Of a DNA stretch of 64,000 nt, positions 3,667-64,000 are shown piece after piece; the first letter of the stretch is position 1; every line of letters starts with the position of its first letter. This stretch comes from Vicinamibacteria bacterium (GTDB lineage: Bacteria > Acidobacteriota > Vicinamibacteria > Fen-336), in the NCBI GenBank assembly GCA_035570235.1, contig DATMML010000133.1, forward strand, positions 1-64,000, written 5' to 3'. The position numbers and the translations under genes were made by a program. The notes below the pieces were generated by a model that searched no databases, was not told the origin of the DNA, and saw only the letters and a list, made by a program, of their open reading frames with translations.

Positions 3667-3960
3667 CGCAAGAAGCGCGAGCAGGTTAACCCTCCGCCCT
3701 AACTGGAAGTCCTTTGTTCGCCGCGGAGTGGCCACGGAGCGGAAGGCGGGGTTAACCCGCTTTATCTTGCAGCGTCGGTTCGTTCGGGCTGAGGTGGATT
3801 CGAGACACACCGTTCGCCGGCAACAGTGCAGAACGACCGAACGACAGGCCGACTGGCTAGCTCCCCGGCGCCTCGGGTGCAGCCTTCACGCGCTATCAAG
3901 TCCGCCGCCTCGCGACAGTCTCCACATCGCGGTGGGATACTAAGGAACGGGAGCGGAGCC
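3667..3960. other. Region upstream of the VWFA gene
   Basis: This divergent spacer lies between the toxin operon and the large plus-strand gene. The plus frame of the VWFA gene stays open back to 3826, but that part lacks any recognisable protein feature. GCGGG-GTTAA-CCCGC followed by TTTAT (3746-3764) is a small hairpin whose role is unclear. Confidence 0.5.
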
Positions 3961-42166: not shown

Positions 42167-45100
42167 TCAGATCACTTCGACTTGCTCGCGGCCTGCTGGG
42201 GCGGAAGCCGCCGCGGCCAGACGCTGGTGCAGGAGAGCGGTCAGTGCCTCAACTGTCGTGGAGTCGAACAGCTTGCCGATCGGCACGTCGACCTCCAGGT
42301 TGGTGCGGATCTGGTTGCGAAGCTGGACCGCCATCAGGGAGTCGAAGCCCAGCTCGAGGAGGGTGAGCTCACTGTCCACCTGGGCGGGATCGCTGTAGCC
42401 CAGGATCTTGGCCACACGCTCCCGAACGTAGGCTGACAGCACCTCCTGACGGTTCGCGGCCTCTGCCGCCCTCACCTTGGGTAGAATGCCCTTCACCTCT
42501 TCGCCCGCAACGACCCGCTCGCCCTTGGGAGCGAGACGCTCCAGGTAAGGCGGGGCCGTGCCTTCGGCCACTTCCTTGAAGAACTTGTCCCAGTTGATCG
42601 GCATGACGCCGACCTGGGCCCGACCCTCGGCGATCAGGTCACCCAGCACCTGGACCGCCTGCGCCGGGTCGATCGGCCCCAAACCGCGGTCCCGGAGCGC
42701 CTTGCGGCGGAACTCGGGCAGTGTCGCGGCCATTCCGACCTCCGCCCAGGTTCCCCAGTTGACGGCCAAGCCCTTGAGCCCTTCGCGGACGCGGCAGTGG
42801 GCGACCGCGTCCTTGAAGGCGTTGCCCGCTGCGTAGCTCGCCTGCGCCACGGAGCCCAAGAGAGATGCGGCCGAAGAGAAACACACGAAGAAGTCGAGGG
42901 GCAGGTCGCGGGTGAGAACGTGGAGGTTCCAGCTCCCGGCCATCTTGGTGTCCAGCACCTCGACAAAGTGCTCCCAGGTCTCGTCCAGCAGCACCCCGCC
43001 GATCCCGATACCCGCGGCATTTATGACTCCCCGCAACGGCGGTAGTGTCGCGGCCACCTGATCAAACACGGCCTTCATGTCACTCTCGTTCGCCACGTCC
43101 GCAGGCATCACAACAACCTGAGCGCCCTGGGCCTCGAGGGCCCGGATCTCCTCCCGAGCCGACTCCCTCGCGCCCCGACGGCTGGTCAACACGAGGTACC
43201 GGGCCCCTTCGTTGGCCAGCCAGGCCGCTGCTTTCAGGCCAAGGCCTCCGGTGCCTCCGGCGATCAAGTAGGATGCGTCGGGACGAATCTCGGTACGCCG
43301 GCGCTCCGGCCGCGGGCGACGCGTGAGGCGGGGCACGAATCGTTCACGCTGGCGGTAGGCGGCATGGAACTCGCCGTCCGGTCCGGCGAGCTCGCCGAGG
43401 ATGGCCGCTACCTTCGCCTCCTTGGAACCAGCCTCCACGTCCACCATGCCTCCCCACAACTCGGGGTTTTCATCCAGGAGCGCCTTGCCCAGGCCGAAGA
43501 GTGGAGCTTGAGCTATCTGGACGGGGCCCTGACCCAAGGCCTGAGCCTGCTCGGTCACAAGCCACAGCCGTGGCTTCGCGAGCCCCTCTACCCCAGCTAG
43601 GGCCTGCACTAGGTGAATGGCGCTAGCGCATCCGAGCACCTGGGCCTCGCGAAGCGAGGCCAGGCTCAGCTCATCGACGGGAGCGGCGTCGAGGCTCCAG
43701 AGGTGCACGGCACCGCGGAATGTGGCATTTCCCTGCTCCTTAAGGAGCCGGAAGAAGTCCTCCCGCCGCGCCGGGTTCACCGTGAAGCGGTCGGTCTCGA
43801 CCCGGCTGAACGCCGACCCTCGGGCCACGATCACGGTCTTCTCGCCGGCCTCCCGGAGGCGCCGGGCGAGCTCCGCCCCGACGCCACCCGCATCCGCCAG
43901 GATGAGCCAGTTTCCGGGCTGGCCGTTGCTCTTCCATGGTTGGGTGCGGTTCTTCCTTACCCATTCCACCTCGTAGCAGCCGTGCGGGATGGAGACTTCG
44001 GAATAGGGCGTTGGGGCCTCCAGCACCGGCCGGTTCAACCGCCTCAATTCCTCGACCGAGATGTCCGAACGCTTCTCGCACGTAATTAACGCGTAGAGCG
44101 CCAGGCCTTGCGCGTGCATCTTTCCCAGCCGGTCGTAGGATTTCAGGCCACGGAGAAACTCCTTGGAGCCTCCCTTGGCTTCGAGCTTGGCAAGGTTTTG
44201 GTCAAAGTCCGGGTCGTGGAGGAAGTACGACATCTCCCGGCTGATGTCGACCAAGTCCACGCAAAGCAACTGGCTCTCGGAGAGCAGTTCCACCCACTCC
44301 TCGGTCGTCGGGAAGTAGGAGGAGATGGCGTCGTAGTCGATGCTGAAGCCGGTCCTGGAGATGAAATCGGCCATCACCAGCTGACCCCTCTCGGTGAGGT
44401 GCCGGCCGATGTGGCCGAAGAGGGCAGGCTTGTCGGGGACGTGGTGGGCAACCTCGAACCCGAAGGCGAGCTCGTACATCCCCGGGAACTCGTCCTTGGT
44501 ACTGTCGCAGTTGAAGATGCGGACGCGGTTTGCGAGGCCGAGTCGCTCGGCTTTCTTCTGCCCTACTTTCATCTGCTCGACCGATAGCGTGTAGCCCGTC
44601 CCCTCGATGTGGGGGTACCTAAGGCCCAAGGTGCAGAGGTCAGAGGCGTAGCCACATCCGAAATCGAGGACACGTTTCACCTGGGCAAAGTTCACCTTAC
44701 GGAACACAGCCTCGCGGAGGTCCTGTTGCGCCTCCAAGGTGAGCTTCGCCCACCCGGGACGGCTCTCGCCGTCGACCATGGCCAGCACCCAGGAGTATCC
44801 GGGGAGAACCGCCGGCAGAGGGGCAAAGGTCAGGTAAGCCTCTGTTGTCTCTTCGAGCGCCGCTGCCTCTACATCCGGGTTGAGGTTACGGAAGTTGTCG
44901 TAGTAGTTTCCGACCACGGCTTTGTAGGCGCCGTTTTCGGGGTTGACACGGCGCTCGTACTCCTCCGCGAACACCTCGAGGAGCCGACCTAGCAGTCGTG
45001 CCTCGTCGTCCGAGAAGCGCCCGCTCCTCTTCACCTCCTCCACGATCCTGCCCTTCTCTCTCTCTTCGAGAAGGTCCTGAAGCCAACTACCGTCTCCCCG

Positions 45101-47857
45101 CCGGCCGTTCGGGATCGCATCCACGAAATAGCGCTGCCCCTTGTGCGGGTAAGTCGGCATGCCGATCTTCCTGCGGCCATACCCAGCGTCGAAGGCATCC
45201 CAGTCGACGCCAACCCCGCGCACGAACAACTCGCCGAGGGTTAGGAGGATGCGTTCCCAGTCATCCTGGCCCGGGGAAAGCGTGGGAAGGAAGGCTCCGC
45301 TGCCCGGAGGCAAGCAGGCTTCGCTGATCCTCGCCAGAGTCGGCTTGGGACCGACTTCGACGAAGAGCTCGCAGCCGAGGCGATGAAGAGCCGCTATCCC
45401 GTCTGCGAAGCGCACCGGCTTCTGGATGTGGCGGACCCAATGGTCGGGCCCCGTCAACTCGTCCCCCGCCACGGCTCCGGTCAGATTCGAGACGAGCGGG
45501 ATCCGGGGCTTGTAATAGGTGATCCCTCGCGCCACCCGCGTGAACTCCTCGAGCATAGGGTCCATGAGTGGCGAATGGAAGGCGTGCGAAACCTTGAGCG
45601 GTCGCGTCTCGACCCCCTCGGCCTCGAACGCGCGGGCGATCCCCTCCACCACTTCTGTGCGCCCGGAGATGACGACGTTTCCGGGCCCGTTAAGGGTGGC
45701 GATGGACACATCCTTCCGATAAGGCTCGACCGCACGCGCTACCCGTGGCTCGTCGGCCAGGATGGCGACCATGGTCCCCTCGCGGGGCAGGGCGCCCATG
45801 AGTCGGCCCCGCTCCGCGATGAGCCGAAGACCATCCTCCAGGCTAAAGACGCCGGCCACGCAGGCCGCCACGTCCTCGCCCGCGCTGTGGCCGATCACGA
45901 AGTCGGGCTCGATGCCCCAGGATTTCCAGGTCTCGCAGACGCTGTACTCTAGGGCGAACAAGGCGGGCTGGGCGAAAGTCGTGTCGTCAATGGGCGAGGT
46001 CACGCCGGGCGCTGGATAGATCACGTCCAGGATCCTTCGGCCCATGATGGGCCGCAGGATCTCGTCGCAATGGTCCATTGCCCGACGGAATGCCGGTTGG
46101 CACTCGTACAGCCCCCGTCCCATCTGGACATACTGGGCACCTTGCCCGGTGAAGAGGAACCCCACTAAGGGACGGCCGCTCGACTTGGCCTTTCCGCTCA
46201 CGACACCGGGGGTATCCTTTCCCTCACCCAGGGCGCGCAACTTCGTCCGCAGATCCTCGAGCGAGGAGCCGACCACGGCAAGACGCTCTCGGTACTTCGA
46301 GCGGCCGGTGGCGGCGGTGAAGCAGGCGTCGCCTACGTTCAGTTCCGGGTGTTTCGCGAAGTGGTCGGCGTAGGACTTGCCAAAGCGCTGGACGGCTTCC
46401 CTGTCCTTGGCGGAAGCCACGAGCACATGTCGCGGACGCTCGCGATTAACGGCGCGCGGCCTCTCCATGGGCGGCGCCTCCCCCACCACCAAGTGCGCGT
46501 TGGTCCCGCTCACACCAAAGGAGCTCACGCTGGCGTAGCGCGCCCGGTCGCCCCGCGCCCAGGGAGTGAGCTTCGTGACCACCTTGACGGGCAGGGAGTC
46601 CCAGGGAATACCTGGATTTGGGGTGCGAAAATGGAGGTTCGGAGGCAGCGCCTCGTGCTGAAGGGCGAGCACGACCTTGATCAAACCCGCGATCCCAGCC
46701 GCAGACTCGAGGTGGGCGATGTTCGTCTTGACCGTGCCCAGCAGCAGAGGGTTCTCCGGGCTTCGTCCCTGGCTGTAGGCGTTGCCGAGAGCAATCACCT
46801 CGATGGGATCGCCCACGGTGGTGCCAGTGCCGTGCGCTTCGCAGTAGGCCACCTCTGCAGGCTCGATCCCTGCCTGGAGGAGCGCTCTCCTCGCGGCCGC
46901 CTCTTGGGCGGGGCCATTGGGCACCGCGATACCGCTCGTCTTCCCGTCCTGGGTCACGGCAGAGCCGTAGATCACGGCTTGGATGCGGTCCCCGTCACGG
47001 AGGGCGTCTGAGAGCCTCTTGAGCAAGACCGCCCCCGCCCCCTCTCCGCGGCCGAACCCATCCGCCGAGGCGTCGAAGGCCTTGCAGCGGCCGTCGGATG
47101 AGAGCACCTGCAGGCCGGAGAAGCACACGTAGTTCTCAGGCCCCAGGATGGCGTTGACCCCTCCCGCCAAGGCCATATCACAGGCCCCACTTCGCAAGCT
47201 CTGCACGGCCAGGTCCACTGCTACCAGCGAGGCCGAGCATGCGGTGTCGAGGGATAGGCTTGGTCCCTTGAGGCCCAGCCCGTAGGAGATGCTGCCCGAG
47301 GCCAGGCTGTGGAGGTTGCCGCCCACCACATTGCCATCGAGCGCCGCAAGCGGCCTCGAGGCCAGGCGCTGCCAGTACTCGACGCTCCAGACTCCTACGA
47401 AGACTCCGGTGATACTCCCGTCGAGGCTAGCCGGGGCGATCCCGGCATCTTCGATGGCCGCCCAGCACACAGCCCCAAAGAGCCGGTGCTGTGGGTCGAC
47501 GGAAACGGCGTTCTTCGGAGCGACCCCCGCGAACACGGCGTCGAAGAGCTCGATGTCCTTGACGAAGGCGCCGTAGCGCGTGTGGGTCTTACCCGGAGTT
47601 CCGGGCACGGGGTTGTAGTACTGATCGATGTCGAAACGCTCCCGTGGGACCACGGTGACCGCGTCCACGCCGTCGCGCATCAGCTCCCAGAACTTCTCGG
47701 GGTCGGTAGCCTCGCCGGGCATGTTGCACCCCATCCCGATGATCGCGATGGGCTCGTGCTGCCGTCGCTCCGTGGCCTCGAGCCGCGCCTTCAGCTCCTC
47801 CGCCTCCAGCAACGCCTTCTTGAGGGCTGTAAGGTCGGTTGGATTCATTTCGCTCAT
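42167..47857 (-). CDS. Type I polyketide synthase, KS-AT-MT-KR-ACP (last module)
   Basis: ATG 47857 with GGAGTGG just upstream gives 1896 residues. A short coiled N-terminal docking segment (about 8-35, LKKALLEAEELKARLEATER) precedes the KS (35-457). Its catalytic residues are in DTACSASL (C207), EAHGTGTT (H342) and NIAHLESAAG (H382). AT (565-865) has GHSAGE (S658) and HAFHS, the malonyl-type motif. A SAM methyltransferase follows (about 980-1265, VLDFGCGYASDL). KR (1527-1705) has AGGTGGLG and ASYAAGN with Y1675, so it should be active. ACP (1805-1880) has LGFDSL (S1840). DH, ER and TE are absent. The KS differs from the other four proteins (TACS versus FCST), as if this module had another origin. 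The MT may be C- or O-specific. Confidence 0.95.
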   Translation of the reverse strand: MSEMNPTDLTALKKALLEAEELKARLEATERRQHEPIAIIGMGCNMPGEATDPEKFWELMRDGVDAVTVVPRERFDIDQYYNPVPGTPGKTHTRYGAFVKDIELFDAVFAGVAPKNAVSVDPQHRLFGAVCWAAIEDAGIAPASLDGSITGVFVGVWSVEYWQRLASRPLAALDGNVVGGNLHSLASGSISYGLGLKGPSLSLDTACSASLVAVDLAVQSLRSGACDMALAGGVNAILGPENYVCFSGLQVLSSDGRCKAFDASADGFGRGEGAGAVLLKRLSDALRDGDRIQAVIYGSAVTQDGKTSGIAVPNGPAQEAAARRALLQAGIEPAEVAYCEAHGTGTTVGDPIEVIALGNAYSQGRSPENPLLLGTVKTNIAHLESAAGIAGLIKVVLALQHEALPPNLHFRTPNPGIPWDSLPVKVVTKLTPWARGDRARYASVSSFGVSGTNAHLVVGEAPPMERPRAVNRERPRHVLVASAKDREAVQRFGKSYADHFAKHPELNVGDACFTAATGRSKYRERLAVVGSSLEDLRTKLRALGEGKDTPGVVSGKAKSSGRPLVGFLFTGQGAQYVQMGRGLYECQPAFRRAMDHCDEILRPIMGRRILDVIYPAPGVTSPIDDTTFAQPALFALEYSVCETWKSWGIEPDFVIGHSAGEDVAACVAGVFSLEDGLRLIAERGRLMGALPREGTMVAILADEPRVARAVEPYRKDVSIATLNGPGNVVISGRTEVVEGIARAFEAEGVETRPLKVSHAFHSPLMDPMLEEFTRVARGITYYKPRIPLVSNLTGAVAGDELTGPDHWVRHIQKPVRFADGIAALHRLGCELFVEVGPKPTLARISEACLPPGSGAFLPTLSPGQDDWERILLTLGELFVRGVGVDWDAFDAGYGRRKIGMPTYPHKGQRYFVDAIPNGRRGDGSWLQDLLEEREKGRIVEEVKRSGRFSDDEARLLGRLLEVFAEEYERRVNPENGAYKAVVGNYYDNFRNLNPDVEAAALEETTEAYLTFAPLPAVLPGYSWVLAMVDGESRPGWAKLTLEAQQDLREAVFRKVNFAQVKRVLDFGCGYASDLCTLGLRYPHIEGTGYTLSVEQMKVGQKKAERLGLANRVRIFNCDSTKDEFPGMYELAFGFEVAHHVPDKPALFGHIGRHLTERGQLVMADFISRTGFSIDYDAISSYFPTTEEWVELLSESQLLCVDLVDISREMSYFLHDPDFDQNLAKLEAKGGSKEFLRGLKSYDRLGKMHAQGLALYALITCEKRSDISVEELRRLNRPVLEAPTPYSEVSIPHGCYEVEWVRKNRTQPWKSNGQPGNWLILADAGGVGAELARRLREAGEKTVIVARGSAFSRVETDRFTVNPARREDFFRLLKEQGNATFRGAVHLWSLDAAPVDELSLASLREAQVLGCASAIHLVQALAGVEGLAKPRLWLVTEQAQALGQGPVQIAQAPLFGLGKALLDENPELWGGMVDVEAGSKEAKVAAILGELAGPDGEFHAAYRQRERFVPRLTRRPRPERRRTEIRPDASYLIAGGTGGLGLKAAAWLANEGARYLVLTSRRGARESAREEIRALEAQGAQVVVMPADVANESDMKAVFDQVAATLPPLRGVINAAGIGIGGVLLDETWEHFVEVLDTKMAGSWNLHVLTRDLPLDFFVCFSSAASLLGSVAQASYAAGNAFKDAVAHCRVREGLKGLAVNWGTWAEVGMAATLPEFRRKALRDRGLGPIDPAQAVQVLGDLIAEGRAQVGVMPINWDKFFKEVAEGTAPPYLERLAPKGERVVAGEEVKGILPKVRAAEAANRQEVLSAYVRERVAKILGYSDPAQVDSELTLLELGFDSLMAVQLRNQIRTNLEVDVPIGKLFDSTTVEALTALLHQRLAAAASAPAGREQVEVI

Positions 47858-47951
47858 GCTAACCACTCCAGTTATACGAGGCGCCCAAGCGGCAACGCCT
47901 CCGGTCTTGCTCTCCGCCGATTGGCAGCGTTCGCCATATCGCGTTCAAGCC

Positions 47952-50900
47952 TCACAGCTCGATCTCCACGCGCTCGCCCGTAGCCCCGCCAGGGCCCGCC
48001 CCCCCCTTGGCCCATGTGGCGGTCTCGACCTGGGTTGCCAGCTGCGCGATCGTGCGGGCATCGAAGATCACTTCCACCGGCAGTGATACGCCGAACACCT
48101 CCCGCACCCGCGACAGCACCCGGGCCGCGAACAACGAGTGCCCTCCTAGTTCGAAGAAGTCGTCGTGGATGCCCAAAGTCTCCAGTCCCAGCAGCTCCTG
48201 CCAGATGCCGGCCAAGCGCCTCTCGGCCTCGCTCCGCGGGGCGAGGTATTCGCTGCCAAGGGGAGGACGGGGTCGCGCACCGGCCGCCGCGGACAACGCG
48301 GGCGGAGTCGGCAGCGGCTTCCCCCGGCGCCCCAGGCGGGCCTCCAGCCGGCCCGCCGAGACCAGCAGGCGGTCAAGGCGGCGCAGGCGGAGCAGCCGAG
48401 AAAAGCCGCGCAGGGCCTGCTCCGGCATGAGCGCCGGCCCTTCGGTCGCGAGGCCGCGCATCCATGCTGCCTCCACGCGCCCGGGCAAGGCCCACTGGTC
48501 CCAGTTGACGCTCACCCAGGCTGCGTTCCCTTCTCGGCTGGCCGAGGTGGCAAAGGCGTCCAGGAACGCATTCGCGCCGGCGTAGGCCGCGTAGCCCACT
48601 CCGCCCAGCGCGGTAGAGAGCGACGAGATGAGTAGGCAGAAGTCGAGCTCCTCGCCTCGCAGCACCTCTTCGAGGGCCAGAAGACCCCGTACCTTGGGGA
48701 GGAACTGGCGGTCGCAGGCCTCGCGGCCCAACTCCCGGGCGACGCGGAAGCTGTCCGCGTCCAGAACGCCCGCGGCGTGGATGACCCCATGGAGGGCGCC
48801 GAACCGCTCGTGGGCTGCCCGCACAACCGACCCCATGGCGGTGACGTCCGCAACGTCCGCGGCCACGACCAGGACTTCGGCCCCGAGCCCCTCCAGCGCC
48901 TGGACCTTTCTGATCCGCAGCGCGGTCCGCTCCGTGGGCTCGTGGCTCGCGAGCCAGTCCCCCCACTGCGCGCGCGGTGGTAACCCGGTCCGTCCTGTAA
49001 GGACGAGCCTCGCTCGCGCCTGCTGTACGAGCCAGATCCCAAGGACGAACCCTATGTCCCCGAGGCCCCCGGTGATCAGATAGACGCCACCCGCACGTGC
49101 CCTCGAGCCGTTGAGTGCGTCGGCGTCCGCCCCGAGCGGGTCGTCTTCCTCCGGCATCCAGTCATAGTCCTGGACCCAGCGGTGACCTCGGCGATAAGCG
49201 GTCACCGGCTCGGGGCGCGGGAGCCCGAGTTCCGCCACCAGCCGGTCGGCCAGCCCCTCGTGGCCCCCCACGGCGGGCTCCACATCGATCACGGCGCAGG
49301 TAACTTCTGGGTCCTCCTGGGGCAGGACACGGCAGAGTCCCAGCAAGGGCGCCTTCTCGGGGGCCAGCGCCTCCCCACCCACGACCTCATGGAGGCCCGC
49401 CGTGACGACCTTCAGGGCGAGCGGGCCGCCACCGCGCGCGGCGGTTAGGTGGAGCAGGCTAAAGAATCCGAGGTCGCAGGCCCGCCGAAATCGCTCTGGG
49501 CTGGACAATTGGGGATCGGGGGCCTCCACGCTCCACAGGTGGATCACCCCCGCCGGCAGCCGTCGGCGCCGGTGCAGGTCCTCCCACAGTAGAGAATAGT
49601 CTCGCGGCTGGCTGGGGTCGATGGTGTAGCCCCGCTCCGGATCACCCGTGAAACGGGCGCCCGCTGCGATCGTGATCACTTCGGCGGCAAGGGCGTTTAG
49701 CCGCTTAGCGATGCTCGCCCCGAGGCCCTCAGGATCAATGAACAGCAGCCAGAGCTGCCCTGGACCCGCAGGTTCCGCTGCCGCGGGCAGCGCGGTCTTC
49801 CAAATGGGCCGATACAGCTCGGGCTCCATCTTCTCATCCGCGGGCTTCGCCTCCTCCTCGAGGGGATCCACCCAGAAGCGGCTCCGTTCGAATGGGTAGG
49901 TGGGAAGGGGAACCCGCCGGCGGGCCTCCGGCGCATGCACCGCGCGCCAGTCGAGCTCCACGCCCGAGAGCCAGAGGCGACCCAGCACCTCTAGCAGCTG
50001 CGCAGAGCTCAGGGAGGCGCGGATCGCCGGCGCTTCGGAGCCCCGGATCGCATCACGGGTCGTCACCCGACCTCCATCAAGCTCGATCCGGAAGCGACCG
50101 CCCCCAGAAGCCGGCTCCGCGGTGCTCCCCGCCGCCTCGGGATTCGGTCCGCCGGATCGCACGGCCCCCGCAAGCTCCATCACTCCCTGCAAGCAGGCCG
50201 CCACCCGCGCCCCCACGCCTTCTCCCTCGATGGCCTCGAAACGGAGGCCCCAGGACTGGAGAAGGCGCGCGCTCGCGTACTCGAGGGCGAAGGTGGCGAG
50301 GGACCCGATCTGGGGCTCGACAAGTGCTCGCCCAGCCGCCTGTGCTTCGGGAGCAGCCGGGAAGAGCGCATCCCGCATCCGGCGGCCGGTCTCGCCCGCT
50401 GCCTCCACACAGGAGAGCAGCGCATCCCGGAACACGGGCTCCTGCTCGTACAGATCGCGCCCAGTACCCACGGGGGGGGGCGCGCTGGTGGCCAGGCGCA
50501 GAACGATGGGAGGGTTCCGCAGATCGCAGACAACACCCGGCCCATCTGTGCGCAGAAGGGATGCGGCCTCGCCTGCCGTCGCGGCGACGAGGACGCCCCG
50601 GTGGGCGAAGGCCCGGCGGCCGACCTGCAGCGTATAGGCCACGTCGGCGAGGTTCAGCTCGGGTTGCGCCTCCAGGTACGCGGCCAGTCTGTGGCGAGCC
50701 ACCACCAGCGCCTCCTCCGTCCGCGCCGAGAGGAGGAGCAGATGATGCCGGCGCGCGGATGGGGCGCTCGGCATCGCCGGCGCTTCCTCTAGGATCACGT
50801 GGGCGTTGGTGCCGCCGACGCCGAAGGTGTGCACTCCCGCCCGGCGGGCAACGCCGTCACGGGGCCAGGGCCGGAGGGTGGCGTTCACGAAGAACGGGCT

Positions 50901-55100: not shown

Positions 55101-56722
55101 ATGTCGACGTACTGCGCTCCCTGGCCGGGAAACATGAAGACGACCGGGCGTTCCATGGCCCGCGAATACGTCGTGTAAACCCGCTTGGGATCGAGGCTTT
55201 CCAGGGCGTCGGCCGCCCGGATCGCGTCCTCCGCCACCAGGATCCGCCGGTGCTCGAAGCGGCGACGGCCAGCGAGGAGTGTGAAGGCGACGTCCCCGAG
55301 GTTCTGGTCGGAGTGGGATCGGAGGTGCCGGACGAGGCGCAGCGTGGCCGCCTCCAGAGACGACTCTGTCCGCGCCGACAGCACCATGAGCTGGGCCGGC
55401 CGACCCGGTCCCGAGGGCGGGTTGGAAGGCGCCTCCTCGAGTATCAAGTGTGCGTTTGTTCCCCCCACTCCCAGAGAGCTGATTCCCGCCCGGCGGGGTG
55501 AGCCGTCCGTCCTCCACTCGGCAAGCCGGGTGTTGACTTGGAAGGGGCTGTTCTCGAAGTCGATCTTCGGATTGGGCCGCTCAAAGTGGACGAGAGGCGG
55601 GATCGCCTGGTGCTTCATCATGAGGGCTGTCTTGACCAGGGAGGCGACGCCAGCCGCCCGGTCGAGGTGCCCGAGGTTGGCTTTCAGGGATCCGATCGCG
55701 CAATAGCCCTTCCGCTGGGTCCCTGCGCGGAAGGCCCGCGTCAGGGCCTCGATCTCTATGGGATCGCCAAGAGCGGTGGCCGTGCCGTGGGCTTCCACGT
55801 AGCTGATGGAGTCCGGGCTCACGCGGGCCACCGCCATGGCCTCGGCGATCGCCTTGGTCTGGCCCACGACGCTCGGTGCCGTGTAACCGGCCTTCTGGGC
55901 CCCGTCGTTGTTGATCGCGCTGCCGCGGATTACGGCGTGGATGGTGTCGCCGTCGGCGAGGGCGTCGGCAAGGCGCTTCAGGGCCACCACCCCCACCCCG
56001 TTGCCGAAGACGGTCCCCGCGGCTTTCTCGTCGAAGCTGCGGCAGTGCCCGTCCGGGGAGAGGATTCCCCCTTCCTGATAGAGGTACCCCCCGCCCAGGC
56101 CGACGTTGACCGAGGAGGCGCCCGCCAGGGCCAAATCGCTCTCGCCGTTCAGGAGGCTCTGGCAGGCCAGGTGAACGGCGACCAGCGATGTCGAGCAGAA
56201 CGTCTGAACCGTGATCGCCGGCCCGGTCAAGTCGAACTTGTAGGCCACGATGGTGGCGAGCGAGTCGCGGTCGTTGAAGACCCCCAGGGAGGACATCCCC
56301 GCACCGGCCGCGCGTATCGCCTCCGGGTTCAGCAACAGGTTTTGGGTCAGGTACGTGCTCATGGCGGAGCCTGCGAAGACGCCGATGCGCCCCGCGTACT
56401 GCTGGCTGTCGTAGCCTGCGGCCTCAAGCACCGTCCAGGCGCACTCCAGGAAGAGGCGGATCTGGGGGTCCATGGTCTCGGCCTCGCGCGGGTTGAAGCC
56501 GAAGAAGCTGGCGTCAAAGAGCTCGATGTCGTCGAGGAGGGGAGCCGCCTTCACGTGCGCCACTCCGCCGTGCACGACGGGGGCCTCCGGAGAGAGGATG
56601 GTGATGGTCTCGACGCCCTGACGGAGGTTCTCCCAGAAGCCCTCGAGGGTGGACGCCCCCGGCACTCGGAGCTCCATTCCCACGATCGCGACGTCGTTGA
56701 GGTGATCGTCCTGGTCGCTCAT
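52100..56722 (-). CDS. Type I polyketide synthase, KS-AT-KR-carrier
   Basis: The 1540-residue protein has an acidic start (MSDQDDHLND), then KS (10-430) with TFCSTSL (C176), EAHGTATA (H312) and NLGHLDRAAG (H352). AT (527-830) has GHSVGE (S624) and HAFHS (720-724), pointing to malonyl-CoA. KR (about 1125-1330) has ITGGLGGV and YAAYAAGN. The carrier has FFDLGGHSL (S1469). After it comes a strongly basic tail (ARGRRRKDERRRRQQ) that may dock to the next protein. No DH or ER is present, so a beta-hydroxy product is predicted. AT and KS are very close to those of the next upstream gene, consistent with module duplication. Confidence 0.95.
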   Translation of the reverse strand: MSDQDDHLNDVAIVGMELRVPGASTLEGFWENLRQGVETITILSPEAPVVHGGVAHVKAAPLLDDIELFDASFFGFNPREAETMDPQIRLFLECAWTVLEAAGYDSQQYAGRIGVFAGSAMSTYLTQNLLLNPEAIRAAGAGMSSLGVFNDRDSLATIVAYKFDLTGPAITVQTFCSTSLVAVHLACQSLLNGESDLALAGASSVNVGLGGGYLYQEGGILSPDGHCRSFDEKAAGTVFGNGVGVVALKRLADALADGDTIHAVIRGSAINNDGAQKAGYTAPSVVGQTKAIAEAMAVARVSPDSISYVEAHGTATALGDPIEIEALTRAFRAGTQRKGYCAIGSLKANLGHLDRAAGVASLVKTALMMKHQAIPPLVHFERPNPKIDFENSPFQVNTRLAEWRTDGSPRRAGISSLGVGGTNAHLILEEAPSNPPSGPGRPAQLMVLSARTESSLEAATLRLVRHLRSHSDQNLGDVAFTLLAGRRRFEHRRILVAEDAIRAADALESLDPKRVYTTYSRAMERPVVFMFPGQGAQYVDMARGLYEQEAVFRKTLDECCERLKPTLGLDLRSVLYPSPDHAAEAADRLGQTAITQPALFVVEYALARLWMSWGIQPQAMIGHSVGEYVAAHLAGVLTLADAMALVAERGRLMQSMPPGSMLAVPLPAGEVEDCLRDGVALAAVNGPSYCVLSGPSPAIEAIEADLKRRNVPATRLHTSHAFHSPMMDPILAPFRERMNAVRLAPPRLPYVSDLSGTWITEAEATSPDYWVRHLRGTVHFAEGIRTLWAEPERLLLEVGPGNALGAFARQQAARSAAPSIVSSLRHPREVEGDLPFLLSALGRLWASGVRIDAARIFAGEQRRRVSLPTYSFERERYWVEADPARAALQAAAAKKDPADWFYLPTWKSALPAEAVETRNGSDSASGWLLFVDEGGFGDRLAQRLREQGDVVVTVRPGSVFSGNARTGFVIDPRAREQYQRVLEATSQEGRRVERIVHGFAVGPERAGTLTPEQVAQAQDLGYYSLLYLAQTLAGRAESHPLQLKLLTSQMHDVLQGDVPHPEKATMLGLVKVVPQELHHVTCSAVDVEAPQAPTWSDVSALDGLLLELRTRHPGTVVAVRRRQRFVLGYEPLRLPLPEARPRLLREGGVYLITGGLGGVTFILGAYLAHVAKAKLVLTGRARLPERGEWAEWRRSHGDADPVSQRIVRAESLEQLGAEVLVVAADVADSAQMEEAFRQAEARFGPVHGVIHGAGIVGGDSFRPIPQIGPSECEQQFHPKIAGLLALDRVLAGREIDFCMLTSSLSSVLGGFAYAAYAAGNIFMDAFTQARNQRGRPRWLSVDWDEWRLAEPPDEAGRGAGLAQFAMGALEGAGAFARLLDLAGVSQVVVSTGDLQGRIEKWIRLEALRGDRNKGAKESEGARHPRPHLQNAYVAPGKPSEQKIARIWAELLGVEKVGIQDNFFDLGGHSLLAIQVITKIKAELAAEVSVATLFEGPTVESLARLIGRETEETQEFEHSSARGRRRKDERRRRQQGTEGLS

Positions 56723-56726
56723 AGTG

Positions 56727-59700
56727 TCACGCTAGGGGGTCCAGCGCGGGTTGGATCTCACGCTGCTGCCGCCGTCGCCGCATCAGGTCCAGGCGGGTCT
56801 CCGCCCGCTGCCCCACTTCTTCGAGCACAACCGGCTCATCCGCGGTCCGGTCCCTCAAGGCGCGAGCGAGCAGGCCCACCGTCGGCGCCTCGTAGAAGGT
56901 CACGATGGGGATCTCCTTCCCCAGGCGCGTTCTGAGGAGGGGGATGACCTGGAGAGCGGTGAGCGAGTCGCCGCCCAACTCGAAGAAGTTGTCGTCGACC
57001 CCGATCTCCTTCCGCCCGAGGATCCGTTCCCAGGTCTCGGCGATCATGCGTTCCAGGTCGCCGCTGAAGGCGTCCTGCTCCACGGCCCGCACCTCGCTCG
57101 TCGGTTCGAGCGTCCCCGCCAGAGCCGGGGGGGTGGCCTTGCGCTCGAGTTGGGGTTGGAGCAAGGCCGGCCGCATGTCCATCGTGAATACGACGACCTG
57201 GGGGACGCCGGCGGCGAGGATGCGGCCGAGGGCATCCACCCCCTCTCGGGGAGCGATGCCCACCTTTAGGCTGAAGTCGCGCGCCGCCTGCAGGGCGCCG
57301 GAGACGGGAGTGTTCACCGCCATCCCCACCTCCCGCCAAGCATCCCAATTCACGGAGATTGCCGGCGGCCCGCCGGCGGCGCGCGCGCGATGGGCGTAGG
57401 CGTCGAGGAATGCGTTGGCTCCGCAGTAGTCGACCTGGCCAAGGCCGCCCAGGAGCGCGGCCGTGGAAGAACAAAGCAGGAAAAAGTCGAGTGACTCCTC
57501 CCTCAGCGCCGCCTCCAAGACGAGCGTGCCCTGGACCTTGGGGGCCATGACGCGCGCCGCAACGTCACGTTCCTTGAGGGAGATGATCCCCCCGCCAGCC
57601 ACGCCCGCGGAGTGAATCACTCCCTGAATGGGACCGAAGCGCTTACGAGTGGCTACGACTGCGCCTTCCATGTCCTCCCGACTCGCCACGTCCGCTCTCA
57701 GGTAGAGCACCTCCCCGCCGCGGCCCTCGAGATCCCGAATCTCCCCGATCCGCTGGCTGGTTGCGTCTTGCCGGCCGTGCTGTTCGAGCCAGACCTCCCA
57801 CTCCTCCCGGGGCGGCAACAAAGAGCGCCCGGTGAGCGCGAGACGAGCCTTCCAGTTCTCAGCCAGGTGCTGGGCGAAGACGAGACCGATCCCGCCCAGG
57901 CCACCCGTGATGAGGTACGTGCCCCCTTTCCTTAACCGGCTCACCCCGTTGGGGGGCGCGAGCGGTGTCGGTTCCGCAGACTGCACCCAGCGGTGAGGGC
58001 CACGATAGGCCACGACGGGTTCGGGCTGGCCGGTCAGCAGCTCGGCGACGATGCGATCGGCGAGCCTGACGGCCTGGGCGGAGCCGGGCGTCGGCAGGTC
58101 CACATCGATGCTTTGGCACGAAACCTGCGTCATCTCCTGGGGGATCACCTTGCACGGCCCGAGAACGGTCGCCTTCTCCGGGCAGGTGAGCTCGCTCCCC
58201 ACCACCTCTTGCATGTTGTTGGTGACCACGGCCATGTGCAGCGGCTGCCGGAAGTCCGCGCCCGCGAGGCCCTGGGCCAAGAAGAGCACGCTGTAGAAGC
58301 CCCGGGTCTGCGCCTCCTCCACTCGGTCGAGGTTGGAGGTCGAATCGTCGCGCGTCAGGCCCCACAGGTGTACCACGAACTGCGGAGGGCCATCCTGAAG
58401 CGTTCGGAGGAGGGTGACGTAATCCGCCCTCTCCCGGGGATCAATCTCGAAGCTGTTTGGCGCGACGGTCGCGAACCCACGCCCCCTCCGGACCGTCATC
58501 ACGGTCTGGCCGGCCCGAGTCAGCTGTTCCGCCATCACCGCCCCGAGGCCCTCTTCGTCCAGGAATAGCAACCAGCGCGAGCCCCCGGGAGGAAATGGCG
58601 TCGACAATAGCTCGGCGGGAAGGAAACGACGCCACGAGGGCTGGTAAAACCAGTCCTGCACCTCGCGGCGTTGCAGCGAGTAGCCCTGAGCGATCGATTC
58701 CACCAGCTGCCGCTTCTCGTTCCGGTCCACCCAGAACCGCTGCCGTTCGAAGGGGTAGCTGGGCAGGGCCACCCGCCGGCGGCGTTCCTCCCCGTGCACA
58801 CTGACCCAGTCCAGGTTGACCCCGGCCAGCCACAACTTCCCGAGCGAGCCGAGCAGGAACGCGCGGTCGGGCAGCGTCTCGCTCACGTGCCGAAGGCTCG
58901 CGACCGCGGCGGCCGCGCCAGTGTCCGCCCCCTGCTGGCGGGCAAGCGACACCAGGGTGTTGCCCGGACCCACTTCCAGTAGGACGGGGCGGCTCTCCTC
59001 GCCAATGAGACGCTTCACCCCTTCCCCGAAACGCACGGTCCCCCGCAGATGCCGGACCCAGTACTCCGCGTCCATGGCCTCCCCGGCGGTGATCCAGTCA
59101 CCGGTGACGTTGGACACGAAGCGTAGCGAGGGGGTTCGGCGCTCCGCCTCACCCACCCGCCTCCGGAACGCGGGCAGGATTGGCTCCATCATCGCGGAGT
59201 GGAAGGCATGGGACGTGTGGAGCCGTCGGCTCGGCACCCCCCGCTCCGCCAGCTCCCGCTCCAGACGATCGATGGCCTCGGCGCTGCCCGCCACCGCACA
59301 GGCCCCGGGCGCATTGACGCTGGCCAAATCCAGGCCTGCCCCGAGGTGCGGCCGGAGCGCAGCCTCCCCCAGGGGAACCGACAACATGGCGCCCCGCGGG
59401 AGAGACTGCATGAGACGGCCGCGCTCCGCCACCAGGGCGAGGGCATCCTCGAAGGAGAAGACGCCCGCGAGGTGGGCAGCCACGTACTCGCCCACGCTGT
59501 GGCCGATCATGGCCACGGGCTGGATTCCCCAGGACATCCATAGCCGGGCCAGGGCGTACTCGACCAGGAACAGCGCGGGCTGGGTGAATTGCGTCTGCAT
59601 GAGCTGTTCCGCGGCCGCCTCCGCATGGCCACTTCGCGGGTAGAGCACTCCGCGCAAGTCGAGCCCCAGCGAGGACCGCAGCAGCTCCGCCCCCGCATCC

Positions 59701-61379
59701 ACCGCCTCGCGAAATACCGGCTCCTCCTCGTAGAGACCCCGGCCCATGCCGACGTACTGCGACCCCTGACCTGTGAACATGAACGCGACGGGCGCGTTCT
59801 GCCGCTCCTGCGCCGCCGTCGCCCACCGCGCGGGATCACCAAGGGCCGCCCGGGCGTCCTCGAGATCCCGCCCCACCACCACCCGGCGGTGGTTGAAGAC
59901 GCGCCGGCCAACCTGGAGGGTCCAGGCTGCGTCCGCGAGGTTCGTATCCGGATGCGCGGTCAAGTGGTTGGTCAGCTTGCGCGTGGCCTCGTCGAGCGCG
60001 GTCGCGGTCTTCGCGGAGGCGACCAGGAGCTGCCAAGGGCGGGCAGGGTCCGAGGGAGGCAGGAGGGGCGCCTCCTGAAGGATGGCATGCGCGTTCGTAC
60101 CACCGATCCCGAACGAGCTAATGCCGGCTCTTCGCGGTCCTTCGCTGTTCCACGGCGTGAGCTCGGTGACCACGTAGAACGGGCTGCCCGCGAAGTCGAT
60201 CTCCGGATTCGGAGCCTCGAAGTGCAGACTGGCCGGAATCTGCCGGTGCTCAAGAGCGAGCACGGTCTTGATGAGGCCGGCCACGCCGGCGGCGGCGTCC
60301 AGGTGGCCGATGTTCGTCTTGACGGAGCCGATCGCGCAGTAGCGCTTCCTCCCCGTCCACTTGCGCCAAGCCTTGGTGAGTCCGGCGATCTCGGCAGGAT
60401 CGCCCAGAGCGGTGGCGGTTCCGTGGGCCTCTACGTAGGTGATCGTCTCGGGGTTCACGTCCGCCGCCGACAGTGCCTCCACGATGACCTCGGCCTGCCC
60501 GCTCACGCTGGGAGCAGTAAAACCGACCTTCACTGAGCCGTCGTTGTTGATCGCGGAGCCCAGGATCACGGCACGGACATTGTCGCCATCGCGTACCGCT
60601 TCTTTTAGCCGTTTCAACACCACCGCCCCGAGGCCGTTGCCAAACACCATCCCCTTGCCGCGAGCATCGAAAGTCCGAGTGTGCCCGTCGGGGGAGAGGA
60701 TTCCGCCCTCCATGTACTGATATCCAGTGTTCTGGGAGACAGCGATCGTCACGCCGCCGGCAAGGGCCAGGTCGCTCTCATGGTTGAGCAAGCTCTGACA
60801 GGCCAAGTGCACGGCCAAGAGGGAGGTCGAGCAGAAAGACTGCACCGCATAAGCGGGACCGCGCAGGTTGAGCTTGTAGGCAACCCGGGTGGGTAGGGCA
60901 TCGTTCATGTTCCCGAGGCCGACCTTCAGGTTGCCCATGGCCTGGATGAGCTCACGATCCCACTGCAGGTAGTTCATGAGGTAGCTGCTCTGGCTCACCC
61001 CCGCCGCCAGCCCGATCGAGCCCGCGAAACGCTCGGTGTCGTAGCCGGCGCTCTCCAGTGCCTCCCAGCAGCACTCGAGGAAGAGCCGCTGCTGGGGGTC
61101 CAGGATCTGGGCCTCCCGGGGCGTGTATCCAAAAAACGCAGCGTCGAAGAGGTCGGCTCCCTCGATGCGGGGCCGCATGGGGACGAGGTCGGGCCGCTCC
61201 AGAAAGGACGGGTGCACGTCCACCTCGGCCGCCCATTCCTCGAGGCTGATTGACGAAACCGACTCGACGCCGTTCTTCAGGTTCTCCCAGAGTTCGTCCA
61301 CGCTGTTGGCCCCGGGGAACTTCCCCGCCATTCCGACGACGGCGATCTCGGTGCCCGTCATCTCAGTCGACGACTGCAT
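56727..61379 (-). CDS. Type I polyketide synthase, KS-AT-KR-carrier
   Basis: ATG 61379 is chosen because AGAGGAGGA lies 8 bp upstream; it overlaps the previous gene by 17 bp. The 1550-residue protein has KS (10-432) with SFCSTSL (C183), EAHGTATA (H319) and NIGHLDAAAG (H359). AT (530-830) has GHSVGE (S628) and HAFHS. KR has LITGGLGGIG and a YCGAN catalytic tyrosine motif. The carrier has FFELGGDSL (S1472). A basic tail (RLDLMRRRRQQREIQ) ends the protein. It should add one malonyl unit and reduce it to the beta-hydroxy level. The stop lies 4 bp before the next PKS start. Confidence 0.95.
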   Translation of the reverse strand: MQSSTEMTGTEIAVVGMAGKFPGANSVDELWENLKNGVESVSSISLEEWAAEVDVHPSFLERPDLVPMRPRIEGADLFDAAFFGYTPREAQILDPQQRLFLECCWEALESAGYDTERFAGSIGLAAGVSQSSYLMNYLQWDRELIQAMGNLKVGLGNMNDALPTRVAYKLNLRGPAYAVQSFCSTSLLAVHLACQSLLNHESDLALAGGVTIAVSQNTGYQYMEGGILSPDGHTRTFDARGKGMVFGNGLGAVVLKRLKEAVRDGDNVRAVILGSAINNDGSVKVGFTAPSVSGQAEVIVEALSAADVNPETITYVEAHGTATALGDPAEIAGLTKAWRKWTGRKRYCAIGSVKTNIGHLDAAAGVAGLIKTVLALEHRQIPASLHFEAPNPEIDFAGSPFYVVTELTPWNSEGPRRAGISSFGIGGTNAHAILQEAPLLPPSDPARPWQLLVASAKTATALDEATRKLTNHLTAHPDTNLADAAWTLQVGRRVFNHRRVVVGRDLEDARAALGDPARWATAAQERQNAPVAFMFTGQGSQYVGMGRGLYEEEPVFREAVDAGAELLRSSLGLDLRGVLYPRSGHAEAAAEQLMQTQFTQPALFLVEYALARLWMSWGIQPVAMIGHSVGEYVAAHLAGVFSFEDALALVAERGRLMQSLPRGAMLSVPLGEAALRPHLGAGLDLASVNAPGACAVAGSAEAIDRLERELAERGVPSRRLHTSHAFHSAMMEPILPAFRRRVGEAERRTPSLRFVSNVTGDWITAGEAMDAEYWVRHLRGTVRFGEGVKRLIGEESRPVLLEVGPGNTLVSLARQQGADTGAAAAVASLRHVSETLPDRAFLLGSLGKLWLAGVNLDWVSVHGEERRRRVALPSYPFERQRFWVDRNEKRQLVESIAQGYSLQRREVQDWFYQPSWRRFLPAELLSTPFPPGGSRWLLFLDEEGLGAVMAEQLTRAGQTVMTVRRGRGFATVAPNSFEIDPRERADYVTLLRTLQDGPPQFVVHLWGLTRDDSTSNLDRVEEAQTRGFYSVLFLAQGLAGADFRQPLHMAVVTNNMQEVVGSELTCPEKATVLGPCKVIPQEMTQVSCQSIDVDLPTPGSAQAVRLADRIVAELLTGQPEPVVAYRGPHRWVQSAEPTPLAPPNGVSRLRKGGTYLITGGLGGIGLVFAQHLAENWKARLALTGRSLLPPREEWEVWLEQHGRQDATSQRIGEIRDLEGRGGEVLYLRADVASREDMEGAVVATRKRFGPIQGVIHSAGVAGGGIISLKERDVAARVMAPKVQGTLVLEAALREESLDFFLLCSSTAALLGGLGQVDYCGANAFLDAYAHRARAAGGPPAISVNWDAWREVGMAVNTPVSGALQAARDFSLKVGIAPREGVDALGRILAAGVPQVVVFTMDMRPALLQPQLERKATPPALAGTLEPTSEVRAVEQDAFSGDLERMIAETWERILGRKEIGVDDNFFELGGDSLTALQVIPLLRTRLGKEIPIVTFYEAPTVGLLARALRDRTADEPVVLEEVGQRAETRLDLMRRRRQQREIQPALDPLA

Positions 61380-64000
61380 CAGATGTCCTCCTCTTGGGTC
61401 GGTGGCCTTCTCTCCTCTGTTGCCCCCGCCCCTCGCTGAGCGCCAGGGCGTGGTCCGGTCCCTGACGCGACCGGATGAGGTGGCCGAGGGCTCGCACGGT
61501 CGGGGCCTCGAAGAGCGTGGCCACGGAGAGTTCGACCGGGAACTCCTTGCGGACACGACCCATCAGGTGGACGGCAAGGAGGGACGAGCCCCCCAGCTCG
61601 AAGAAGTTGTCATCCGCCCCCACGCGGTCGATCCCGAGCATCTGGGCCCAGAGGGTGGCCAGCTGGCGGTCCACGGGGTCCTCGGGGGTGACGTAGACGG
61701 CGCTCATCTCGGGCCGCGCGTGCCGCTCGGCCTCCGGAGACGAGGAGGCTGCGCCGGCCCCTCCCGGGACCTCCCGCCGCGTCCACTCCGCGAGACGCGT
61801 GCCAAGGGGTGTGGTGGACACGACGATCTGAGGCGGCGAGCCCAGGGTCAGGAGCCGCGCGAAGGCTTCGCCACCCTCCTCCGCGGAGATCGCGGTCGAT
61901 GCGAGTCGACCACCCCCCTCGACGATCCCGGAGCCGAGCTGCCAGCCGTCCCAGCAGACACTGACCCAGAAGCGCTTCCCCTTCTGGTGCTGGCGGCGAG
62001 CGAAGGCGTCGAGGGCGTGGTTGCCGGCAGCGTAGGCCCCGAGACCCAGGCCTCCCAATACGGTGGAGAGCGATGAGGTGAACAGGACGAAGTCCAGGGA
62101 CTCGTCGCCCAGCAGCCTTTCCAGCACCTCCGCTCCTCCCAGCTTCGGCCGGAGCTGCCGCTCACAGTCCGCCCGCTCGGTTTCAGCAAGGGGGCGGAAA
62201 GCACCCGGACCCAGCTCCGCCGCCGCGTGGATCACGCCGTGGAGGCGCCCGAACCTCTCTCGGGCCAGCCCCAAAACGGCCCGCATCTGGCCGAGGTCAG
62301 CGGCGTCCGCGCTTAAGGCGAGGACCTCGGCTCCCAGGGCCTCCAAATCCTGGACGGCCCGAATCTTCCGGGCTTCCTCGTCGCCGGGGGGGGCAGCGGC
62401 GAGACGCTGCTCCCACTGCGCGCGCTCGGGCAGGCCGGAGCGGCTGGTCAGGACCAGGCGGGCCTTTGCCGTCCGCGCAAGATGGGCGGCGAGGGCGAGG
62501 CCGACCTTCCCTAGCCCGCCCGTCACGAGGTAGACGCCCCGCGGGCGCAGGGGTGCCGCTGTGGGCGCGGTCGCCGCCGGCTCCACGGGTTCGAAGGACA
62601 GGACCCACCGGTGCCGGCCCCGGTACGCGACCGTCGGCTCCGGGGAGGACGAGGCCCCTTCCGCGAGGACCACTTCCGCGAGCACCTCCCGGGACGGCTC
62701 GTCCGGTCCCCCCCTTGGCAGGTCGAGGGTTCGACAGGCGAGGAGAGGGTACTCCTGGGGGATTACCCGGCAGGGGCCGAGCACCGTTGCCGCCAGGGGC
62801 GACAGAGGCTCATTACCGAGCACGTCCTGGACCCCTGCCGTCACGACCAGCAGGCTCGTCTCCCGGTCCTGCCTGCGACCGAGTGCCTGTCCCAGGTGGA
62901 GCACGCTGAGGAGGCCACGCTCCAAGGGGTCCCCTGCGCCCCCTTGCGCACTCCACAGGTGGACAAAGCGGTCGGGCACGCCCCCCTTCGCCGCCAGGTC
63001 GTCCAGCAATTGCTCATACGCTCCGCGCTGCCCGGGCGGGAGGGTGCACTCCCCGGCCTCGCCCCAAGCAAAGCGTGGTCCCGGCCGCACCACCGTCACC
63101 GAGGCGCCCCGGGCGCGCAGGCCTGCCACCAGAGCCGAGCCCAGCGCGCCCTCCTCGGGGAGGAGCACGCACCAGCGCCCTTCGACCGTCTCCCTGTCGA
63201 GGGGCAGGGCCTCCGTTCGCTTCCAGGACGGCGTGTAGAGCCAGCGCTCCACGGGCAACTTCGAAGCCCCCCCCGGGCGCCCCATCTCCGGCTGCGCGGG
63301 GCCCGGGCTCGTTGCATCGACCCAATATCGCTCGCGGTCGAACGCGTATGTTGGGAGCACAACCCGCCGTTGCCCACGGTAGTGGTCACGCGACGACCAA
63401 TCGACCGCGATGCCCGCCGTCCACAAGCGGGCCGCGGTCTGAAGGAAGAAGACTTCGTCTGCCTCCGGCTGGCGGGGATGCGGGAGAGAGGCCAGCGCGA
63501 TCACCGCGGAGTGCCTCCGCTTTGCCAGAGCGACCAGGGTATGACCCGGGCCCACCTCGAGGAGGGTTCGCTTCGGGTCGGCCAGCAGGGTGGCGAGCCC
63601 CTCGGAGAAGCGCACCGTGTCCCGCAGGTGCCCCGCCCAATAAGCGGAGTCGGTGGCCTGCTCCGCAGTGATCCAGGTCCCCGTCCGGTTGGACACGAAG
63701 GGAATCCGAGGCTCCTTCATACGTGCCCTCGCCACGCGGGCCGCAAAGGCGTCGAGGGCCGGCTCCATCAGCCGGGAGTGAAACGCATGCGAGGTCAGCA
63801 CGCGTCCATGGGCCACGTCGAGCTCCTTCAGGCGGGCCTCCAGCCGCTCGATGTCTTCGAACGCCCCTCCGACGACGCAGGCATCCGGCCCATTCACCAC
63901 GCAGAGGTCCAGTCGACCGTCGAGAAGGGGCAGCACCGTCTCCGCGGCGAGGGCCACCGCGGTCATAGCCCCCGGCGGGCAATCCTCCATGAGACGACCG
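61363..64000 (-). CDS. Type I polyketide synthase, AT-KR-carrier, 5' part beyond the window
   Basis: The frame is open to the window end, so the protein is partial; the visible 878 codons begin inside an AT. GRLMEDCPPGAM corresponds to the segment after the AT active site in the sister modules, so KS and the GHSxG serine lie outside. HAFHS is present (malonyl type). KR has VTGGLGKVG and GAYAAGN. The carrier has FFELGGSSL, and a basic tail with RGQQRREGHRPKRR follows. An ATG at 63990 exists but sits in the middle of the AT and is not the start. As the most upstream module visible it shows that the assembly line extends further to the right. Confidence 0.93.
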   Translation of the reverse strand, partial: GRLMEDCPPGAMTAVALAAETVLPLLDGRLDLCVVNGPDACVVGGAFEDIERLEARLKELDVAHGRVLTSHAFHSRLMEPALDAFAARVARARMKEPRIPFVSNRTGTWITAEQATDSAYWAGHLRDTVRFSEGLATLLADPKRTLLEVGPGHTLVALAKRRHSAVIALASLPHPRQPEADEVFFLQTAARLWTAGIAVDWSSRDHYRGQRRVVLPTYAFDRERYWVDATSPGPAQPEMGRPGGASKLPVERWLYTPSWKRTEALPLDRETVEGRWCVLLPEEGALGSALVAGLRARGASVTVVRPGPRFAWGEAGECTLPPGQRGAYEQLLDDLAAKGGVPDRFVHLWSAQGGAGDPLERGLLSVLHLGQALGRRQDRETSLLVVTAGVQDVLGNEPLSPLAATVLGPCRVIPQEYPLLACRTLDLPRGGPDEPSREVLAEVVLAEGASSSPEPTVAYRGRHRWVLSFEPVEPAATAPTAAPLRPRGVYLVTGGLGKVGLALAAHLARTAKARLVLTSRSGLPERAQWEQRLAAAPPGDEEARKIRAVQDLEALGAEVLALSADAADLGQMRAVLGLARERFGRLHGVIHAAAELGPGAFRPLAETERADCERQLRPKLGGAEVLERLLGDESLDFVLFTSSLSTVLGGLGLGAYAAGNHALDAFARRQHQKGKRFWVSVCWDGWQLGSGIVEGGGRLASTAISAEEGGEAFARLLTLGSPPQIVVSTTPLGTRLAEWTRREVPGGAGAASSSPEAERHARPEMSAVYVTPEDPVDRQLATLWAQMLGIDRVGADDNFFELGGSSLLAVHLMGRVRKEFPVELSVATLFEAPTVRALGHLIRSRQGPDHALALSEGRGQQRREGHRPKRRTSDAVVD

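Follow-up and report, generated by a model that had tools for sequence, protein, structure and literature searches.

A five-gene PKS series in an acidobacterial genome as the probable late half of a modular NRPS-PKS hybrid line set in an EPS locus

The stretch of DNA that we analyzed (the window, 64,000 nucleotides) corresponds to positions 1-64000 of contig C133 of genome G000, and the contig itself extends to 73,288. Using Pfam searches and alignment, we identified five consecutive PKS genes on the minus strand, which are arranged head-to-tail with coupled or near-coupled starts, and which we name A to E in their order of synthesis (A > B > C > D > E; Table 1). This confirmed the original prediction of a five-gene series between 42167 and 64000 whose fifth member is only partial in the window, with PKS A overrunning the edge at 64000 by 1,979 bp. 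The true start of PKS B probably lies near 61379.

Table 1. Location, strand and content of the features described in the text
Feature	Location	Strand	Content	Basis
ABC exporter	C133:18039-19943	+	PF00664+PF00005	Pfam
EPS block	C133:20032-38483	.	Wzx/Wzy type, complete	Pfam, NCBIfam
hydr1	C133:38480-39346	-	alpha/beta-hydrolase, related to TIGR03100	
hydr2	C133:39343-40110	-	alpha/beta-hydrolase fold, related to TIGR03101	
558-aa protein	C133:40267-41943	-	predicted secreted	
PKS E	C133:42167-47866	-	KS-AT-C-methyltransferase-KR-carrier (GFDSL); last module	Pfam, NCBIfam
PKS D	C133:47952-52103	-	KS-dead AT remnant-KR-carrier	Pfam, alignment, motifs
PKS C	C133:52100-56722	-	KS-AT(HAFH)-KR-carrier (GGHSL)	Pfam, alignment
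PKS B	C133:56727-61556	-	KS-AT(HAFH, malonyl type)-KR-carrier	Pfam, alignment
PKS A	C133:61363-65979	-	KS-AT(malonyl type)-KR-carrier	Pfam, motifs
Contig C24	15.8 kb		A(end)-T-C-A-methyltransferase-T-E-C-A-T-KS-AT-KR-T, then gene C-A(start)	Pfam
Contig C23	14.7 kb		in order: ATP-sulfurylase/APS kinase, sulfotransferase, AHSA1-like, type II TE (GHSMG), PPTase, small HTH-like ORF, TubC_N-C-A(start)	
Sulfate genes, G000	C23:5974-8670 (L022)			
Sulfate genes, G008	L063:1885-3597			
Sulfate genes, G009	L150:18277-19998			
Sulfate genes, G010	L151:127-1958			

All five proteins contain a KS with its Cys and both His, a KR with the TGGxG/Ser/Tyr/Asn set and one carrier, and the E-values of the KS, AT and KR domains (1e-38 to 1e-86) are far beyond chance. 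The claim that every KR keeps its NADPH motif and tyrosine is therefore upheld, and the KRs look active. The assignment of KS, AT, KR and carrier domains to all five proteins holds for KS, KR and carrier, but a working AT is present in only four of the five, with D the exception. Every AT present (A, B, C and E) contains GHS(V/A)G and HAFH, and the AT of a further module on contig C24 contains GHSxG and HAFH; we take HAFH in these domains to be a malonyl signature. GGHSL carriers, named for the whole series in the original prediction, strictly occur in C and D only, whereas A carries GGSSL, B GGDSL and E GFDSL. The single methyl group attributed to the last module is consistent with our analysis, since the only C-methyltransferase of the line is the PF08242 domain embedded in PKS E. 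No DH, ER or TE domain was detected in A-E by Pfam, and no DH or ER acting in trans, which had been named as evidence against the original prediction, was present among the Pfam matches of the proteins, megasynthases included, that we examined on C133, C24 and C23.

Immediately upstream of PKS A, and overlapping it by 4 bp, is a gene (65976-72647) that encodes TubC_N-C-A-T-C-A-T by Pfam, followed by a partial NRPS, A(C-terminal part)-T, that is cut by the end of C133. The earlier statement that no NRPS domain is visible is thus correct inside 42167-64000, but not for the very next gene. Elsewhere in the genome, condensation domains occur on C24 and C23 only. The ends of C23 and C24 share an identical 141-bp A-domain stretch, and the opposite end of C24 matches the end of C133 at 97.4% over 78 bp, which indicates that two near-identical A domains interrupted the assembly, and which leaves C23 > C24 > C133 as the only linear path. 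Judged from these shared ends rather than from bridging sequence, C23 and C24 most likely continue the C133 cluster, and the joined line would most likely comprise six NRPS and six PKS modules, i.e., roughly 12 steps. Modules of C, A and carrier domains are collinear with KS-AT-carrier modules on C133, and likewise on C24 and C23, as in a modular type I NRPS-PKS hybrid. Two A-domain codes were read from motifs, DILQLGLIW and DLTKVGEVG, and as leads only we presume that these resemble Gly and Asn codes, respectively.

On the other side of the PKS genes, the gene for a 558-aa protein, for which we found no Pfam or NCBIfam match, intervenes between PKS E and a pair of genes that we call hydr2 and hydr1, and homologues of this protein are located beside the hydrolase pair of the related genome G009 (two copies, 53-58%) and in the EPS block of genome G012 (45%). 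The EPS block next to the pair encodes, for export and assembly, Poly_export/SLBB, GNVR/Wzz and tyrosine autokinase-like proteins, a sugar transferase, Wzy and a MurJ-type flippase, together with polysaccharide deacetylases, GH123, four glycosyltransferases and a GDSL protein. Exosortase (PF09721) had no match in this genome, which is 99.6% complete, and the block is therefore not an XrtA EPS locus. The ABC exporter beyond the block, which has a 64% homologue near the TE and PPTase genes of G009, is a possible exporter of the product or the glycan. Positions 3826-6969 of the window encode a large protein whose VWA domain is of the acidobacterial type (TIGR03436), which supports an acidobacterial origin.

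Both members of the pair fall below the curated cut-offs of their best-matching families, with hydr2 scoring 103.6 bits against TIGR03101 (cut-off 202.75) and hydr1 77.7 bits against TIGR03100 (cut-off 168.45); NCBI lists both families as hypothetical equivalogs only. The nucleophile position of hydr2 is occupied by Arg (GLRLG), as it is in nearly all copies, which rules out a Ser hydrolase. hydr1 has a Cys at the nucleophile elbow (GICSG) and a conserved His, and a structure model (pLDDT 85) places Cys113 at this elbow, flanked by strand 107-112 and helix 114-125, with His260 invariant. A fold search with this model returned esterases as the nearest structures and the curacin TE at rank 24, and we regard hydr1 as a candidate off-loading or acyl-transfer enzyme. 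A hydr1 tree separates two clades with 100/100 support, one megasynthase-linked with the motif GxCS[GA] (n = 9, with the copies of G009 and G010 scored as linked by genome and not by contig), and one from EPS-only loci with the motif GxCGG (n = 7).

The line is also present in two more genera of this family. In G008 ('Acidobacteria sp. RBC046', CADEEV01) NRPS-A-B lie at the end of contig C13 and C-D-E open contig C60 (locus L068), while in the fragmented G009 partial contigs carry orthologues of the line modules; NRPSs are located upstream in both. Our KS tree pairs A, B and E with G008, C with G009 and D with both, and B with D is the only supported pair among the module KSs. The KSs of A-D are scattered inside a hybrid group with cyanobacterial, myxobacterial and proteobacterial members, and that of E lies in the ordinary cis-AT group, so that the single acidobacterial KS clade, proposed earlier as a sign of novelty, is unsupported. 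The view that strings of own-gene KS-AT-KR modules are unusual had to be given up as well, since a GTDB genome scan identified single-gene KS-AT-KR-carrier modules behind A-T-C-A-T NRPSs in many phyla, for example in Nitrosomonas, Thauera, Delftia, Cupriavidus, myxobacteria and cyanobacteria. Myxococcus sp. RHSTA-1-4 has three of them consecutively, and strings of this sort are already known behind NRPSs. A 1,523-aa AMP-ligase-carrier-KS protein on a separate 146 kb contig, C30 (L011:7754-12325), belongs to a different KS clade and was left out of the line.

We estimate a probability of about 0.8 that A-E constitute the late-acting polyketide half of a modular NRPS-PKS hybrid, with a peptide-polyketide and not a 1,3-polyol as the predicted product. 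Synthesis would proceed from NRPS module 1 (C23) through module 2 (A-methyltransferase-carrier-epimerase) and module 3 to one KS-AT-KR module (C24), and then through NRPS modules 4-6 (end of C24 and right end of C133) to PKS A-B-C-D-E. The NRPSs would build the peptide and PKS A would accept the chain, after which A, B, C and E would each add one malonyl unit reduced to a beta-hydroxyl, with E adding an alpha-methyl as well, and D would be loaded in trans by another AT of the line or would hand the chain on without elongation.

Module D departs from both common AT arrangements. It lacks a PF00698 match, and its AT is a remnant that reads GEGVG in place of GHSxG, has lost the QGAQ and HAFH motifs and is about 130 residues short, while the KS Cys/His/His and the KR set are intact. 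The line is thus not a cis-AT type I PKS with an active AT in every elongation module, nor a trans-AT PKS with AT-less modules and a dedicated discrete AT in the cluster, since D alone is AT-less. A sequencing error can be ruled out, in that the frame is open, D of G009 shows the same GEGVG and deletion, and the AT is nearly gone in D of G008, a gene with an assembly gap (N) at the AT region. The D orthologues of these two genera share 78% and 68% identity with D in the KS versus 46% and 27% in the AT remnant, and this difference, with the GEGVG common to G009, suggests that the AT was most likely lost before the three genera split, with KS, KR and, in G008, the carrier being kept. Loss of AT function appears to be a repeated trait of these lines, since the PKS A homologue of G008 (L055 from 11737) has lost the AT Ser (GQGIG) and has no recognisable KR, and the AT of the first PKS module of G369, from another family (L187 from 4483), also reads GEGVG.

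The alternative that D does not elongate, with C acting twice or D relaying the chain, would give four or five polyketide units and require no malonate loading of D, and we place it a little short of an even chance. It agrees with a dead AT in D of three genera and with our genome-wide PF00698 search, which returned cis ATs and only one discrete AT, a FabD-type gene on C15, and no dedicated trans-AT for D. It also has a published precedent in the irumamycin PKS, likewise a cis-AT line apart from module 12, whose AT lacks the Ser, which was explained by iteration of module 11 (PMC11672594). The irumamycin AT, however, has a replaced Ser and degenerate motifs, whereas D has lost much of the domain altogether, and this in three genera. 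On the other hand, the KS of D, which is 68-78% conserved, retains the Cys and the two His that decarboxylative condensation requires, and the KR and carrier are intact, which counts against a pure relay, as that needs none of them. The conserved AT-less module D lends itself to testing whether modules of a cis-AT line share ATs or are skipped.

Since PKS E has no TE, release of the peptide-polyketide would occur in trans, and the best candidates would be the nucleophile-less hydr2 and hydr1, with its Cys nucleophile and His, downstream of E. That this pair releases the chain is a tentative proposal, somewhat less probable than its opposite. The thioesterase domains of SulM and ObiF, which release chains from the carrier, have a catalytic Cys (PMC11298585, PMC6668435), and thus resemble hydr1 as alpha/beta-hydrolases with a Cys nucleophile; unlike hydr1, a separate protein of putative function, they are cis domains with a full triad. 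The type II TE on C23 could also perform release. Because the line lies inside an EPS locus, the chain may leave as a free product or be transferred to a sugar of the polysaccharide, and product and glycan may thus be linked.

The distribution of the pair bears on this link. Within the family (f1), hydr2 and the EPS glycosyltransferase at 33876-35084 coincide exactly, both occurring in 5 of 14 genomes and in no others of these. Such a match is expected by chance in 1 of 2,002 cases for independent genomes, an assumption that does not fully hold here, and two genomes are <70% complete. All five hydr2-bearing genomes have NRPS and/or PKS lines, and both genes are absent from G003 and G006, congeners of two of these five; the converse does not hold, as G003 carries NRPSs but lacks hydr2. 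Genes for sulfate activation (ATP-sulfurylase/APS kinase) and/or for a sulfotransferase are found in 4 of the 5 family loci, which points to possible sulfation of the product or the EPS. In G008, for example, hydr2 and hydr1 (58% and 56% identical) directly follow E, and then come sulfurylase/APS kinase genes and the same glycosyltransferases. One contig of G009 carries glycosyltransferases, the two copies of the 558-aa protein, hydr1-hydr2, a methyltransferase, a sulfotransferase and a sulfurylase, and G010 carries two sulfotransferases and a macrolide-type glycosyltransferase, followed by hydr2-hydr1 and the same glycosyltransferases.

Across the class, we found hydr2 in 15 of 193 genomes, next to an NRPS in G012 (NRPS-hydr2-hydr1) and G492, and next to a PKS in G008 and G484 (PKS-hydr2-hydr1). 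In G369 a long NRPS-PKS with four KS-AT-KR modules, followed by an ABC gene, adjoins the pair (PKS-ABC-hydr1-hydr2). A single ORF of G492 (C4:36,887-41,161, L185+L186; 1,425 aa), followed by hydr1, encodes C-A-T-hydr2, i.e., hydr2 is fused to the NRPS end in the place that a TE would hold. Adjacency of the pair to megasynthases therefore occurs in three families (f1, f5 and f14) with different megasynthases. Most other hydr2 loci are EPS loci without a megasynthase (G354, G295, G356, G192, G505 and others), which suggests that the basic job of the pair may belong to EPS and not to the NRPS-PKS. One ordinary EPS locus, in G024, contains a TIGR03098-like acyl-CoA ligase (488 bits, cut-off 592), hydr2, hydr1 and glycosyltransferases, and comparison of gene orders suggests that in this class the megasynthase stands where that locus has its ligase.

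The EPS genes and the pair could instead be mere neighbours of a line with a free, perhaps sulfated, lipopeptide-like product that the type II TE or some other enzyme would off-load, a reading that we find credible and not far below even odds. Pairs in EPS loci without megasynthases, a TE with GHSMG inside the cluster and the NRPSs of G003 without hydr2 are all in keeping with it. It fits less well with an adjacency that recurs with different megasynthases in f1, f5 and f14 and includes an NRPS-hydr2 fusion, with a clade and motif of their own for linked hydr1 proteins (GxCS[GA] versus GxCGG, 100/100 support), and with the exact co-occurrence of the EPS glycosyltransferase and hydr2 in f1. At the other extreme, and rather improbably, NRPS-PKS lines may have replaced the acyl-CoA ligase of EPS loci, in which case hydr2 would be a dead carrier-docking partner and hydr1 a Cys acyltransferase moving the (perhaps sulfated) peptide-polyketide onto the polysaccharide or a lipid-linked precursor, giving a megasynthase-decorated capsule.

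A stand-alone PKS with at least five ketoreducing modules and a 1,3-polyol as its product, as first predicted, matches the KS-AT-KR-carrier proteins that alone are visible within 42167-64000, but it is highly improbable, and ruled out as a complete description, given the adjacent NRPS genes that overlap the PKS operon on C133, the hybrid-type KSs of the A-D group, the upstream NRPSs of the G008 and G009 lines and a module D without AT; that conclusion went wrong because it rested on the window edge at 64000, with the NRPS just to its right.

Among known systems, the hybrid line most resembles loci of Delftia acidovorans and Cupriavidus sp., presumably siderophore clusters, in which an NRPS with A-T-C-A-T is followed by KS-AT-KR-carrier on its own gene, with PPTase and/or TE genes nearby, and whose best-segment identity to D is ~50%. 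It differs from them in its five PKS modules in a row at the end, the dead AT in the fourth, the C-methylating last module, the absence of a TE domain and the EPS neighbourhood. A locus of Myxococcus sp. RHSTA-1-4 (L071) likewise has an NRPS and then three single-gene KS-AT-KR-carrier proteins, but a further condensation domain comes after them. XrtA-associated EPS loci (TIGR03098 ligase, TIGR03101, TIGR03100) share the hydr2-hydr1 order beside glycosyltransferases, as well as the ligase-hydr2-hydr1 layout in G024, whereas here a megasynthase occupies the ligase position, the hydr1 motif is different and the exosortase is absent.

The PKS string alone would be one more uncharacterised hybrid cluster. 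Its potential importance lies in a recurrent coupling of NRPS/PKS lines to surface polysaccharides via one enzyme pair, with an NRPS-hydr2 fusion and in three families. We found no description of attachment of a megasynthase product to a polysaccharide in the part of the literature covered, and if the chain were attached to the glycan, this would be a novel way of building surface polysaccharides and would suggest a function for two 'hydrolases'. Two of the loci with hydr2 in our survey of the class had additional features. In G484, from another family, a region at C1:38,700-50,700 (L183/L184) contains one KS-AT-KR PKS, hydr2, hydr1 and an NRPS in the middle of an EPS locus, and this NRPS carries a MupA/Atu3671-type luciferase-like monooxygenase domain. 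In G438 (C17 and C24; L181, L182), a hydr2 of the megasynthase clade has an EPS context, and a different contig carries ten condensation domains.
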